NCBI GenBank assembly: GCA_949948735.1
Contig: CATLGV010000004.1
Coordinates: 62,001-126,000 of the forward strand
Direction: 5' to 3'
DNA: 64,000 nucleotides
Origin: an uncultured Lachnospiraceae bacterium
GTDB taxonomy: Bacteria; Bacillota; Clostridia; Lachnospirales; Lachnospiraceae
Positions 4,365 to 56,936 of this stretch are shown in pieces. Made by a program: the position numbers and the translations under genes. The notes beneath the pieces are model-generated. The model was not told the DNA's origin. It made no database searches and saw only the letters and a list, made by a program, of their open reading frames with translations. Positions within the stretch are counted from its first letter, which is position 1. The number at the start of each line of letters is the position of its first letter.

Positions 4365-5348
4365 ATGATTAGAATTGGAATTATGGGGTACGGGAATCTT
4401 GGAAGGGGCATTGAATGCGCCGTGAAGCAAAACGCGGACATGGAGCTGAAGGCGGTATTTACCCGCAGGAATCCGGAAACGGTCAGGATATTGACGGAGG
4501 GCGTTCCCGTGTATCCCGCAGAGGAAGCGGTGAAGAGGAAAGAGGAGATTGACGTGCTGATTCTCTGCGGCGGGAGTGCGACCGACCTTCCCGGACAGAC
4601 ACCGGAATACGCGAAACATTTTACGGTTGTGGACAGCTTTGACACACATGCGCGAATCCCGGAGCATTTTGCAAACGTGGATAAGGCTGCCGTGGAGGGG
4701 GGCAATATTGCCGTTATATCTGCCGGCTGGGATCCGGGCATGTTTTCCCTGAACCGGCTGTATGCCAACGCAGTACTCCCAAACGGTAACGATTATACCT
4801 TCTGGGGCAAGGGCGTGAGCCAGGGGCATTCCGACGCGATACGGCGGGTTGCGGGCGTTGCGGACGGCAAGCAGTACACGATACCGGTGGAGCAGGCGCT
4901 GGCGGCAGTGCGAAGCGGGGAGAATCCGGAGCTTTCGGTTCGCGATAAGCATATAAGAGAGTGCTTCGTCGTGCCCGAGGAGGGCGCCGATTTGGCCAAA
5001 ATCGAAGAAGAGATCAAGACCATGCCCAATTATTTTTCCGATTATGATACGACGGTTCATTTTATCACGCAGGAGGAGCTGAATCGGAATCACAGCGGCA
5101 TCCCGCACGGCGGGTTTGTCATCCGCAGCGGCAAGACCGGATGGAATGAGGAGAACAGCCATGTGATTGAGTACAGCCTCAGGCTTGACTCGAATCCGGA
5201 GTTTACGGCGTCTGTGATTGCTGCCTGTGCAAGGGCGGCATACCGGATGAAGGCGGAAGGGATGAAGGGGTGCAAGACGGTATTTGATATTGCGCCGGCT
5301 TATCTGAGTGCGCTTGACGGAGCGCAGCTGCGGGCAAGTATGCTGTGA
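4365..5348 (+). CDS. ddh: meso-Diaminopimelate D-dehydrogenase
   Basis: The 327-residue protein matches the NADPH-dependent enzyme that makes meso-diaminopimelate from tetrahydrodipicolinate in one step, for lysine and peptidoglycan synthesis. The N-terminus MIRIGIMGYGNLGRG is the dinucleotide-binding loop. Also visible are the family segments VVDSFDTHARIP, SAGWDPGMFSLNR and FWGKGVSQGHSDA, and a C-terminal NPEFTASV stretch. Length is normal for the family. The 88 bp upstream hold no strong promoter, and the ribosome site (GAGAAAGG) is rather distant, so the start is reasonable but not proven. The gene is followed by the leuA regulatory region. Confidence 0.93.
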   Translation: MIRIGIMGYGNLGRGIECAVKQNADMELKAVFTRRNPETVRILTEGVPVYPAEEAVKRKEEIDVLILCGGSATDLPGQTPEYAKHFTVVDSFDTHARIPEHFANVDKAAVEGGNIAVISAGWDPGMFSLNRLYANAVLPNGNDYTFWGKGVSQGHSDAIRRVAGVADGKQYTIPVEQALAAVRSGENPELSVRDKHIRECFVVPEEGADLAKIEEEIKTMPNYFSDYDTTVHFITQEELNRNHSGIPHGGFVIRSGKTGWNEENSHVIEYSLRLDSNPEFTASVIAACARAAYRMKAEGMKGCKTVFDIAPAYLSALDGAQLRASML

Positions 5349-5390
5349 TTGATTAAAATAAATCAATAAAAATGATTAATTTTAATCATT
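5349..5390. promoter_or_regulatory. Two adjacent inverted repeats upstream of leuA (candidate operator)
   Basis: TTGATT-6-AATCAA occupies 5349-5366. AATGATTAA-TT-TTAATCATT, a perfect 9-bp arm palindrome, occupies 5371-5390. Both contain the core TGATTAA/TTAATCA. The second lies about 17 bp ahead of a possible -10 (TATGAT, 5407-5412). It could be a regulator-binding site for leuA or, less likely, a weak AT-rich terminator for ddh. Function is inferred. Confidence 0.5.
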
Positions 5391-5430
5391 CCGTTTCACA
5401 CAGGATTATGATAAGATAGGAACACGATAA

Positions 5431-5542
5431 AAGCAATGAAGAGGAATAGTATGATAATGGGAGTAGAGTGGTACCGCGAAGGAATAAGGGTGGGTAAATC
5501 TTTCGTCTCTACAACGTAGGTTGTGAGGCGGAAGATTTTTTT
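5431..5542 (+). promoter_or_regulatory. Short T-box-type leader with antiterminator/terminator ahead of leuA
   Basis: The T-box motif AGAGTGGTACCGCG lies at 5465-5478. AGAG (5465-5468) can pair with CTCT (5507-5510), leaving the hallmark bulge TGGTACC, and GCGAAGG (5476-5482) can pair with bases 5500-5506. The competing terminator pairs 5496-5515 with 5520-5538 around loop GTAG (19 pairs, one bulged T) and ends in seven T. The 5' side retains a stem-I-like start (GAAGAGGAATAGTA, 5440-5453), but only 11 bases separate it from the T-box motif. The specifier stem I and stem III of ordinary T-boxes are therefore absent or deleted. In this family uncharged tRNA stabilises the antiterminator; whether this short version still responds is unknown. 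Confidence 0.75.
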
Positions 5543-5593
5543 GCGGCCTTCGTACATCGAATAACAATAAAACAGATTTTGGAGGATTTGAAC

Positions 5594-7579
5594 ATGAAAA
5601 ATGCAAGCAAGTATCAAAAGGCATATTTTATGCCGCCGGTATGTACCTATGACTGGGTAAAGAAGGATGCGGTTGACGCGCCGCCGATTTGGTGCTCCGT
5701 GGATTTGCGCGACGGCAATCAGGCGTTGATAGAGCCGATGAGCCTCGACGAAAAGCTGCAGTTCTTTCAGATGCTGGTGGATATCGGCTTTAAGGAAATA
5801 GAGGTTGGCTTTCCTGCGGCGTCAGAGACCGAATACGAATTTATGCGCGCCCTGATTGAGCGCGATATGATACCGGCGGACGTCACGGTACAGGTGTTGA
5901 CACAGGCAAGGGACCACATCATACGAAAAACCTTCGAGGCAGTCAAGGGCGCGCCGCATGCGATCATCCATCTGTATAATTCAACCTCTGTTGCGCAGCG
6001 CGAGCAGGTCTTTAAGAAGAGCAGGGAAGAGGTCAAGCAGATAGCCATTGACGGCGCAAAGCTGTTGAAGGAGCTGGCGGAGGAGACCGACGGGAGCTTC
6101 TCCTTTGAATACAGCCCGGAGAGCTTTCCGGGGACGGAGGTGGACTACGCGGTAGAGGTGTGCAATGCGGTGCTGGATGTGTGGCAGCCGACAACCGACA
6201 ACAAGGTTATCATCAATATTCCGACGACGGTCGAGAATGCCATGCCGCATGTATTCGCGACACAGGTGGAGTATGTGCACAAGAACCTGAAATACAGGGA
6301 TGCGGTGACGATTTCACTCCATCCGCACAATGACAGGGGCTGCGGCGTCTGCGACGCGGAGCTTGGCATTCTTGCAGGGGCCGACAGAATCGAGGGCACG
6401 CTGTTTGGCAACGGGGAGCGTACCGGCAATGTGGATATTGTCACGGTTGCGATGAACATGTTTTCACACGGGGTGGATCCGAAGCTGGATTTCTCGGATA
6501 TGAGCAGAATCCGCGCCAACTATGAGCGCTTTACGCGCATGCATGTGCACGAGCGCCAGCCGTATGCGGGGGATCTGGTATTTACCGCCTTCTCCGGTTC
6601 ACATCAGGACGCTATCGCAAAAGGCATGCAGTGGCGCGAGGATAAGCGCACCGATAAATGGACGGTGCCTTATCTGCCGATTGACCCTAAGGATGTGGGA
6701 AGGAATTACGAGGCGGATGTGATTCGCATCAACAGCCAGTCCGGAAAGGGCGGCGTGAATTATATCTTAAAGCAGAATTTCGGCATATCGCTGCCGGAGG
6801 CCATGCGTGAGGAAGTGGGATATCTGGTAAAGGACATCTCCGATCAGGAGCATAAGGAGCTGTCGCCGCAGTGGGTTTATGAGATTTTCAGTGAGAATTA
6901 CATTGAGAACATGCCGTTTTTCCAGATTCCGGAGTGCCATTTCAAGCAGATAGACGGCATTATGGCGGAGACGGTCATTGTGTGCGGGGATAAGCGGACA
7001 GTGGTGGACGCGAACGGGAACGGCCGGCTTGACGCGGTCAGCAATACGATTAAGCAGTATTTTGACATCAGCTATCAGTTATCCGATTATGAGGAGCATG
7101 CGCTGACAAAGGGCTCCTCCTCCAAGGCGATTGCCTATGTCAGCGTTACCTGTAACGGCGTAAAATACTGGGGCGTCGGCATGGACGACGATATTATCAA
7201 GGCCTCCATACACGCGCTCTGCGTCAGTGTCAACAAGCTGCCGGGACTTCAGGACAACAAGGCGTGTCAGGATGAACGGCTGATGGAGATTATGAATTAT
7301 ATTCAGGCCAATTATCAGAATATTGCGCTGGGGGATGTGGCGGAGCATTTCCACCTCTCGGAGCAGTATCTGAGCAAATACATCCATGAGAAGTCCGGTA
7401 AGACCTTTGGCGATTTGGTGACGAACGTACGCATGAAGAAGGCAAAGACGCTGCTGCGCAACGGGAATATGACAATAGAAAATGTCGCGGCGGCTGTGGG
7501 ATATCCGAATGTGGAGCATTTTAACCGCACCTTCAAGAAAAAGATGGGCATGACGCCAGTGCAGTACAGGAATGAGTAG
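5594..7579 (+). CDS. leuA: 2-Isopropylmalate synthase fused to a C-terminal AraC-type DNA-binding domain
   Basis: Residues 1 to about 555 form a complete long-type 2-isopropylmalate synthase, which condenses acetyl-CoA with 2-ketoisovalerate in the first committed step of leucine synthesis. Catalytic-barrel markers are SVDLRDGNQALIEPMSLDEK, the metal-binding SLHPHNDRG, and GNGERTGNVD. The C-terminal leucine-feedback domain spans about 430-555 (AETVIVCGD to HALCVSVNKLPG). Without a stop, residues 560-661 continue as a full AraC-family double helix-turn-helix: ALGDVAEHFHLSEQYLSKYI, then TIENVAAAVGYPNVEHFNRT and FKKKMGMTPVQYR. Usual LeuA proteins end near 555. ATG 5594 is chosen because GGAGG (5581-5585) stands 8 bases before it; TTG 5579 overlaps that site. 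A combined enzyme and leucine-responsive regulator is inferred. Confidence 0.95.
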   Translation: MKNASKYQKAYFMPPVCTYDWVKKDAVDAPPIWCSVDLRDGNQALIEPMSLDEKLQFFQMLVDIGFKEIEVGFPAASETEYEFMRALIERDMIPADVTVQVLTQARDHIIRKTFEAVKGAPHAIIHLYNSTSVAQREQVFKKSREEVKQIAIDGAKLLKELAEETDGSFSFEYSPESFPGTEVDYAVEVCNAVLDVWQPTTDNKVIINIPTTVENAMPHVFATQVEYVHKNLKYRDAVTISLHPHNDRGCGVCDAELGILAGADRIEGTLFGNGERTGNVDIVTVAMNMFSHGVDPKLDFSDMSRIRANYERFTRMHVHERQPYAGDLVFTAFSGSHQDAIAKGMQWREDKRTDKWTVPYLPIDPKDVGRNYEADVIRINSQSGKGGVNYILKQNFGISLPEAMREEVGYLVKDISDQEHKELSPQWVYEIFSENYIENMPFFQIPECHFKQIDGIMAETVIVCGDKRTVVDANGNGRLDAVSNTIKQYFDISYQLSDYEEHALTKGSSSKAIAYVSVTCNGVKYWGVGMDDDIIKASIHALCVSVNKLPGLQDNKACQDERLMEIMNYIQANYQNIALGDVAEHFHLSEQYLSKYIHEKSGKTFGDLVTNVRMKKAKTLLRNGNMTIENVAAAVGYPNVEHFNRTFKKKMGMTPVQYRNE

Positions 7580-55394: not shown

Positions 55395-56783
55395 ATGGAA
55401 AAAACAATGGAAAAAATCGTAGCGTTGGCAAAGTCAAGAGGGTTTGTGTATCCGGGCTCGGAGATTTACGGCGGCCTTGCGAACACCTGGGATTACGGGA
55501 ATCTCGGCGTTGAGCTGAAGAACAACGTAAAGAAGGCGTGGTGGCAGAAATTCGTCATGGAGAATCCTTATAATGTCGGCGTAGACTGTGCGATTCTGAT
55601 GAATCCGCAGACATGGGTTGCCTCCGGCCACCTGGGCGGTTTTTCGGATCCGCTGATGGACTGTAAGGAATGCCATGAACGGTTCCGCGCGGATCAGATC
55701 ATTGAGCATTATGTGGAGGAGAAGGGGATGACGCTGGAGAGCGCCGTAGACGGCTGGAGCCAGGAGCAGATGAAGGCGTTCATAGACGAGAATCAGATTC
55801 CGTGCCCGACCTGCGGTAAACATAATTTTACGGATATCCGTCAGTTTAACCTGATGTTCAAGACCTTTCAGGGCGTAACGGAGGACGCAAAGAACACCGT
55901 ATACTTAAGACCCGAGACCGCACAGGGTATTTTTGTGAATTTTAAGAATGTACAGAGAACCTCGAGGAAGAAGATTCCGTTTGGAATCTGCCAAATCGGC
56001 AAATCCTTCCGCAACGAGATTACGCCGGGCAATTTCATTTTCCGCGTAAGGGAATTTGAGCAGATGGAGATGGAATTTTTCTGCGAGCCGGATACGGATT
56101 TGGAGTGGTTTGCATATTGGAAGCAGCACTGCATCGACTTTTTAAAGAGCCTTGGCATGAAGGAGGAGGAGATGAGAGTCCGCGACCATGAGCAGGAGGA
56201 GCTGTCCTTCTATTCCAAGGCAACGACGGATATTGAGTTTTTGTTCCCGTTTGGCTGGGGCGAGCTGTGGGGAATTGCGGACAGAACCGACTATGACCTG
56301 ACGCAGCATCAGAATGTATCCGGACAGGATATGAGCTATTTTGACGATGAAAAGAGAGAGAAATATATCCCGTATGTTATTGAGCCGTCCCTTGGCGTAG
56401 AGCGTCTGTTCCTTGCGGTGCTCTGCGGCGCGTACGATGAGGAGGAACTTGGCGAGGGGGACATGCGTACCGTGCTGCGGTTCCATCCGGCGCTGGCACC
56501 GGTAAAGATCGGCGTGCTGCCGTTGTCAAAGAAGCTCAATGAAGGCGCGGAGAAGATTTATACACAGCTGTCAAAGAAATACAACTGCGAATTTGACGAC
56601 AGAGGCAATATCGGTAAGAGATACCGCCGTCAGGATGAAATCGGTACGCCATTCTGCGTTACATATGATTTTGAGTCCGAGACCGATCAGGCCGTAACGG
56701 TGCGGTTCAGGGATTCCATGGAGCAGGTGCGCATAAAGATTGACGAGCTGGATGCTTACTTTGCGGATAAGTTTGTTCTTTGA
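55395..56783 (+). CDS. glyQS: Glycyl-tRNA synthetase (homodimeric class II type)
   Basis: The 462-residue single-chain enzyme is the alpha2 type, not the alpha/beta type. Motifs seen are [54 protein letters not shown] (motif 2) and [14 protein letters not shown] (motif 3). The C-terminal anticodon-binding domain starts near [16 protein letters not shown] zinc-type CxxC ([16 protein letters not shown]) lies in the insertion. The AAGGGG site supports ATG 55395. No T-box leader is present. Confidence 0.95.
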
Positions 56784-56796
56784 GATACCAGGGGCA

Positions 56797-56838
56797 AAAG
56801 GTCATGTGTGACATGCCTGCATGTCGGCACATGACTTT
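56797..56838. repeat. Long interrupted hairpin after glyQS
   Basis: TCATGTG pairs with CACATGA and GACATGC with GCATGTC, flanked by AAAG/CTTT, spanning 56797-56838. Both ends read T or A runs, so it could terminate on either strand, though the T run is short. Confidence 0.55.
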
Positions 56839-56894
56839 GGGACCCGCAAAAACATGAGAAAGCAGCCCGACAGGGCGGATTTTGAATGTTTTTA

Positions 56895-56936
56895 GGATTG
56901 CGGGAGCATGAAATGCGGAGCAATCCGCAGGTATCG
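56895..56936. repeat. Inverted repeat in the alaS leader
   Basis: GGATTGC (56895-56901) and GCAATCC (56930-56936) flank 28 bases containing a partly repeated GCGGAGC/GCGGGAGC. Its role is unknown; the rest of this 199-bp gap shows only the alaS ribosome site. Confidence 0.45.

Follow-up and report, generated by a model that had tools for sequence, protein, structure and literature searches.

Enzymes that also regulate transcription are mostly known as single cases. Among these trigger enzymes, BirA and NadR carry helix-turn-helix (HTH) domains and, like the LeuA-AraC protein as proposed here, combine a biosynthetic enzyme and a regulator responsive to the pathway product in one chain. They represent other enzyme classes, however, with an N-terminal HTH of other families, and repress other genes, whereas for LeuA-AraC one target is predicted, the enzyme's own gene. 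Ada likewise joins an enzyme to an AraC-type HTH and activates its own promoter, but it is a DNA alkyltransferase and repair protein, and its trigger is covalent methylation and not a pathway end product. Leucine T-box leaders of leuA serve the same gene and the same regulatory aim by means of RNA, with uncharged tRNA as the signal; at the locus described here, only the antiterminator-terminator tail of such a leader remains. The DNA-binding domain of PutA is a ribbon-helix-helix. In passages on PutA, the protein is described as a proline dehydrogenase that doubles as the repressor of the put operon (PMC6978683), and it thus resembles LeuA-AraC, as proposed here, in being both a metabolic enzyme and a transcription regulator of the operon that encodes it. 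It differs in being catabolic and a repressor, whereas LeuA-AraC is biosynthetic and of AraC type, with activation being more likely. The 2-isopropylmalate synthase of Mycobacterium tuberculosis (1sr9, 3fig) has the same barrel and leucine-binding dimer domain but no DNA-binding domain; passages on this enzyme locate the leucine pockets where the regulatory domains dimerise and describe a loop that closes on leucine (PMC11057210).

In the window, i.e. the whole analysed stretch of 64,000 nucleotides from an uncultured Lachnospiraceae bacterium, a single uninterrupted frame of 661 residues (5594-7579, + strand) follows a leuA ribosome binding site GGAGG (5581-5585, +) and holds a complete LeuA, the enzyme that opens leucine synthesis, and then a complete AraC-type HTH. 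The original prediction had claimed such a LeuA-AraC frame from reading the DNA, and the open frame together with Pfam and NCBIfam matches bore this out. The LeuA part spans residues 1-549 (5594-7240, +), as delimited by Pfam, NCBIfam and alignment to M. tuberculosis LeuA, with Pfam matches above cut-off to the HMGL-like DRE-TIM barrel (residues 32-307), IPMS_D2 (residues 327-393) and the leucine domain LeuA_dimer (residues 424-549). This is the domain set and order of a PRK03739-type LeuA, and PRK03739.1 (2-isopropylmalate synthase) was also the best NCBIfam model (804 bits, residues 4-548, cut-off 455). When aligned with residues 26-519 of the LeuA part (1sr9/3fig; 518 bits), M. tuberculosis LeuA placed its R80, D81, H285, H287 and H379 opposite R39, D40, H243, H245 and H337, which are identical in 35/35 aligned rows and which we take to be the catalytic and metal residues. 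The same holds for G475, N476, G477, Y499, H502 and A512 of the regulatory domain, identical in all 35 rows, whose M. tuberculosis counterparts presumably line the leucine pocket. A variable linker (residues 550-562; 7241-7279, +) leads to the AraC-type double HTH at residues 563-660 (7280-7573, +), where HTH_18 (residues 583-660, 80.2 bits, cut-off 33.6) and HTH_AraC (residues 621-660, 62.6 bits, cut-off 26.6) were both detected, in keeping with an AraC/XylS domain, which comprises two HTH motifs in about 100 residues. The protein is therefore a predicted 2-isopropylmalate synthase with an AraC-type domain at its C-terminus. An enzyme and a DNA-binding domain, both conserved, thus share one chain, the architecture of a trigger enzyme of the PutA type.

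Across 133 fused proteins, the mean pairwise identity of the HTH (0.63) was close to that of the leucine domain (0.65), and the linker reached 0.34 compared to 0.63-0.82 in the flanking domains. Median dN/dS was 0.013 for the HTH (computable in 20/31 pairs, the others being saturated) and 0.021 for LeuA (computable in 25/31 pairs, the others being saturated). The HTH is under purifying selection, and its conservation at the level of the leucine domain together with the low dN/dS indicates that it is in use.

A LeuA match at 1e-80 was obtained in 270 of 299 genomes of the family, and the fusion lies in one open frame in at least 68 of the 299, the window's genome included; the exact-pattern counts below use 70 fused genomes, the two additional ones being G100 (frame break) and G202 (match ending at residue 583). 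Within the genus, the fusion is full-length and in a single frame in 21/23 genomes, the other two showing a fusion split over two contig ends and a 51% match stopping at residue 518, respectively. Carriers include the isolates Roseburia porci (L078), Butyrivibrio hungatei DSM 14810 (L099) and Lachnotalea glycerini DSM 28816 (L109), and the Lachnospiraceae genera Roseburia, Butyrivibrio, Acetatifactor and Lachnotalea are represented; one locus (L107) bears the label Syntrophomonas. Among the matches listed in an order-level search, no genome outside the family extended beyond residue 574, and among those listed in a phylum-level search there was one fusion from outside the family (G869, locus L237). 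Three HTH-bearing loci (L105, L121 and L165) show a frame break in the linker, as might be expected if an assembly error or frameshift had joined two adjacent genes. The one-frame fusion in 21/23 genomes of the genus and in at least 68 of the family, named isolates among them, reduces the probability of such an artefact to a negligible level, and we rejected it. Neither condition named as fatal to the original prediction, a frameshift or assembly error near 7260-7280 or separate LeuA and AraC genes in close relatives, was borne out. In L121 and L165, the HTH continues in the -1 frame right after an A9 or A8 run in the linker (window equivalent 7241-7279), and frame 0 runs into a stop one or two codons past the run; this possibly reflects a programmed frameshift yielding both LeuA and LeuA-HTH, or a homopolymer error. 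The break in L105 is a different one. Transcriptional slippage as a general design was rejected, since linker runs of A8 or longer occur in only 2/135 HTH-bearing alignment rows (L072, with an open frame, and L121); L165 has one too.

Upstream of leuA, we found a predicted operator of two direct half-sites at 5353-5389 (+), supported by a position weight matrix (PWM), pattern searches and a 102-locus logo. It lies in the region 5349-5390 that had been singled out earlier for leucine-dependent binding. Its half-sites, TTAAAATAAATCAA (5353-5366) and TTAATTTTAATCAT (5376-5389), repeat in the same orientation with an offset of 23 bp, and the operator includes the conserved core ATCAAnnnAAnTGATTAA (5362-5379). 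The element was first seen by reading 18 upstream regions, 11 of which seeded the PWM (20-base core). A PWM score of at least 15 was reached at 102/133 fused leuA loci, with L105 and L121 classed as fused, compared to 0/59 unfused loci; leaving out the 18 loci read first, the counts were 87/116 and 0/58 (Fisher p 2.5e-24, relatedness among the loci uncorrected). Eleven of the 133 fused loci scored 10-15, and 17 scored below 10, with no recognisable site in the upstream sequence examined; both groups were counted against the autoregulation model. The highest-scoring unfused locus was L165 (14.6), where an intact HTH persists in the -1 frame, and the site was also found at L237, the fusion from outside the family. 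When the same loci were scanned beyond the 1-kb upstream stretches (1.24 Mb), only four matches were detected (leuA strand, A- or G-initial sites). Three of them are displaced sites of L050, L051 and L053, which lack a nearby site but have one with a score of 25.4 located 1.3-1.5 kb upstream of leuA. These three loci are from relatives 94-95% and 88% identical. Between the displaced site and leuA of L051 lies a same-strand ORF (5055-5846), which by eye we take to be acetyltransferase-like. The gene directly upstream of leuA in the window (4365-5348, +), is by eye presumably a diaminopimelate dehydrogenase, and an ORF resembling it is located upstream in L051 as well.

A search for the exact pattern in the 299 family genomes led to 53 matches, 37 of which fall within 1 kb upstream of a fused leuA and are spread over 36/70 fused genomes. 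This leaves 16 matches, the same number as a reversed control pattern gave; eight of them are in the 70 fused genomes and eight in the other 229. In the window's genome, there was a single match when up to 1 mismatch was allowed, and again a single match to a longer form of the pattern at up to 3 mismatches. Across 15 fused genomes, the longer form was matched 73 times at up to 3 mismatches; 15 of these matches are the leuA sites, and the other 58 compare with 54 for the control. The leuA site had the fewest mismatches in 13/15 genomes, G074 and G177 having a better match elsewhere. A wider regulon was rejected, as the pattern searches gave no second target and matches away from leuA were near control level. 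With one match in the window's genome and the remainder at control level, the data fit a single candidate target, leuA itself. In the leuC/leuD-like region (G000:C4:31000-44000), neither an exact site on the + strand nor an Rfam match was detected. Isomerase-like genes form two tandem pairs there, each of one small and one large gene (G000:C4:33795-37546; L289 2796-6547), likewise with no Rfam match; the large ones match Aconitase, and the small ones are presumed isomerase-like by eye. Among the open-licence literature matches listed (titles and abstract openings), no LeuA-AraC protein was found. Domain databases probably show this order of domains, but we know of no report of the site, of its uniqueness or of its absence without the HTH, and the promoter element tracking the HTH is new in this analysis.

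When the 102 loci were aligned on the core, TAAAAnAnATCAAnnAAAnTGATTAAAtTTA was followed by a poor -35 slot and an extended -10 element (TGnTAnnAT), the distance from core to extended -10 being 29 nt in 86/102 and 28-30 nt in 95/102 loci. In the window, the poor -35 slot ttccgt (5389-5394, +) touches the operator, and the extended -10 reads TGaTAAGAT (5409-5417, +; -10 hexamer 5412-5417); no consensus sigma-70 promoter was detected in 5300-5650 (shuffles, mean 1.3). AraC-family proteins are mostly activators, and direct-repeat half-sites beside the -35 of the target promoter are typical of AraC/XylS regulators. Two half-sites offset by 23 bp at a near-fixed distance to the -10, putatively the site of this HTH, resemble AraC-type activator promoters such as AraC I1-I2, and the geometry of poor -35 slot, extended -10 and near-invariant spacing suggests an activator role. 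G124 and G335 each carry another site-like repeat, of the RACAAnnAAGTTGATTAA type, in the stretch from the promoter to leuA, starting 73-74 bp downstream of the first one (G124:C1:1977092-1977116 and G335:C1:1872846-1872870).

Between promoter and gene, alignment with seven relatives and a low Rfam score (T-box RF00230, 17.4 bits, cut-off 93) revealed a T-box remnant at 5441-5542 (+), consisting of GAGGAATAGTA (5441-5451), the antiterminator GAGTGGTACCGCG (5466-5478) and a terminator hairpin with a T run. The stretch between GAGGAATAGTA and the antiterminator, present in the seven aligned relatives, is missing in the window, as are the sensor stems, and an intact T-box was rejected for the window on account of this and the score. 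By a simple pattern, a T-box core was found near leuA at 33/59 unfused and 36/133 fused loci, together with a leucine-like specifier at 22 unfused and 11 fused loci. Of 20 core-selected loci submitted to Rfam, 19 carry a T-box at cut-off (10/10 unfused, 9/10 fused), the sole miss being L001, the window's own copy; neither L001 nor the window had a T-box gathering match in Rfam. As nine of the ten core-selected fused loci keep a complete T-box, its replacement is not universal. The simplest history would be a T-box leader first, then the fusion together with the operator, and then loss of the T-box in many lineages. A Clostridiales-1 RNA (RF01699; 123 bits) was detected at window position 56783-56936 (+), and L161 has another one upstream of its leuA.

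A quick tree of 110 LeuA domains with midpoint root placed 60/61 fused rows in one group of 70 that also includes 10 unfused rows (support 91), and 38/61 fused rows in the tree have a site score of at least 15. The fused and unfused states require 10 changes, at least six of them forced by the starred branches. Nine relatives that stop before the HTH (L116, L160, L161, L163, L166, L168, L169, L170 and L175) are nested in the fused group, the others lying outside, and the site score among these nine is 7.7 at most. The tenth nested unfused row is L165, with a score of 14.6 and an intact -1-frame HTH after an A8 run; it was the only one of the 59 unfused loci with a downstream HTH match of any weight. 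In six independent pairs on the starred branches, the site went with the fusion in 4.3 pairs on average, against it in 0.0 and showed no difference in 1.7, a sign test that with 6 pairs is not significant (median p 0.125); a cut-off of 12 instead of 15 gave 3.5 for and 0.0 against. T-box and fusion showed no clear association in the independent pairs.

From the fused frame, the site that accompanies the HTH and the promoter geometry, LeuA-AraC is likely a trigger enzyme that controls its own gene, leuA, as its single target, probably as an activator that leucine releases. We infer that this HTH binds the site, that activation is favoured over repression and that leucine is the ligand. The LeuA dimer would set two AraC domains on the direct half-sites at 5353-5389 beside the poor -35 slot, and the bound pair would most likely help RNA polymerase to use the extended -10. 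Leucine in the regulatory dimer domain would inhibit catalysis, and the same movement may release or reorient the HTH pair, so that enzyme activity and enzyme synthesis would be lowered together. Since 13 linker residues separate the HTH from the preceding leucine-binding dimer domain, a leucine-driven change could reach the HTH pair, and leucine control of DNA binding is plausible. The proposal of a trigger enzyme, made originally from the domain fusion, thus gains comparative support from a leuA promoter site that tracks the HTH across genomes and has a single match in the window's genome; the T-box remnant and the single-site pattern are additions to that proposal. In this lineage, the fused enzyme with its operator has apparently displaced a leucine T-box leader.

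The sign of regulation may be the opposite one, with leucine-bound LeuA-AraC sitting at the -35 region and blocking leuA transcription as in end-product repression, which is common in amino-acid biosynthesis. A protein bound to an operator that touches the -35 slot could obstruct the polymerase, and the second repeat of G124 and G335, 73-74 bp downstream, is placed as a downstream operator might be. We nevertheless regard repression as unlikely, because a poor -35, an extended -10 and a spacing kept in 86/102 loci are what an activator needs, the region 5300-5650 holds no consensus sigma-70 promoter, and the AraC family mostly activates. Considerably less probable still is that the HTH has other DNA targets and the leuA element serves another regulator, both merely sharing a clade. 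Two features of one clade can co-occur by descent, 17 of the 133 fused loci have no recognisable site, and the test on independent pairs is too small for significance. The nine nested unfused rows without a site argue against such coincidence, however, as do the fusion and site at L237 outside the family, the retention of the site at the loci whose HTH persists out of frame (L105, L121 and, weakly, L165), and the control-level number of other genomic matches.

Enzyme tails can also be recruited as structural parts, and an AraC-like tail that no longer binds DNA might stabilise or regulate the enzyme. With an HTH about as conserved as the leucine domain, its dN/dS of 0.013 and its association with a DNA site, we consider this very improbable. 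For autoregulation of leuA by LeuA-AraC, the evolutionary reading in full, in which the enzyme has become a transcription activator for its own gene only, one leucine pocket sets both catalysis and promoter occupancy, the circuit replaced the T-box in many lineages and several lineages returned separately to an unfused, operator-less state, is slightly favoured.

The fusion is present in at least 68/299 sampled genomes of a gut-bacterial family and comes with a candidate DNA site and a promoter layout, as well as natural cases of gain and loss. If the reading is true, it would add a trigger enzyme that catalyses the committed step in the synthesis of an amino acid and an AraC domain with an allosteric enzyme as its sensor, and it would make the takeover of a riboregulator by a protein circuit traceable, with LeuA-AraC and its promoter forming a compact, probably leucine-responsive regulator-promoter pair.
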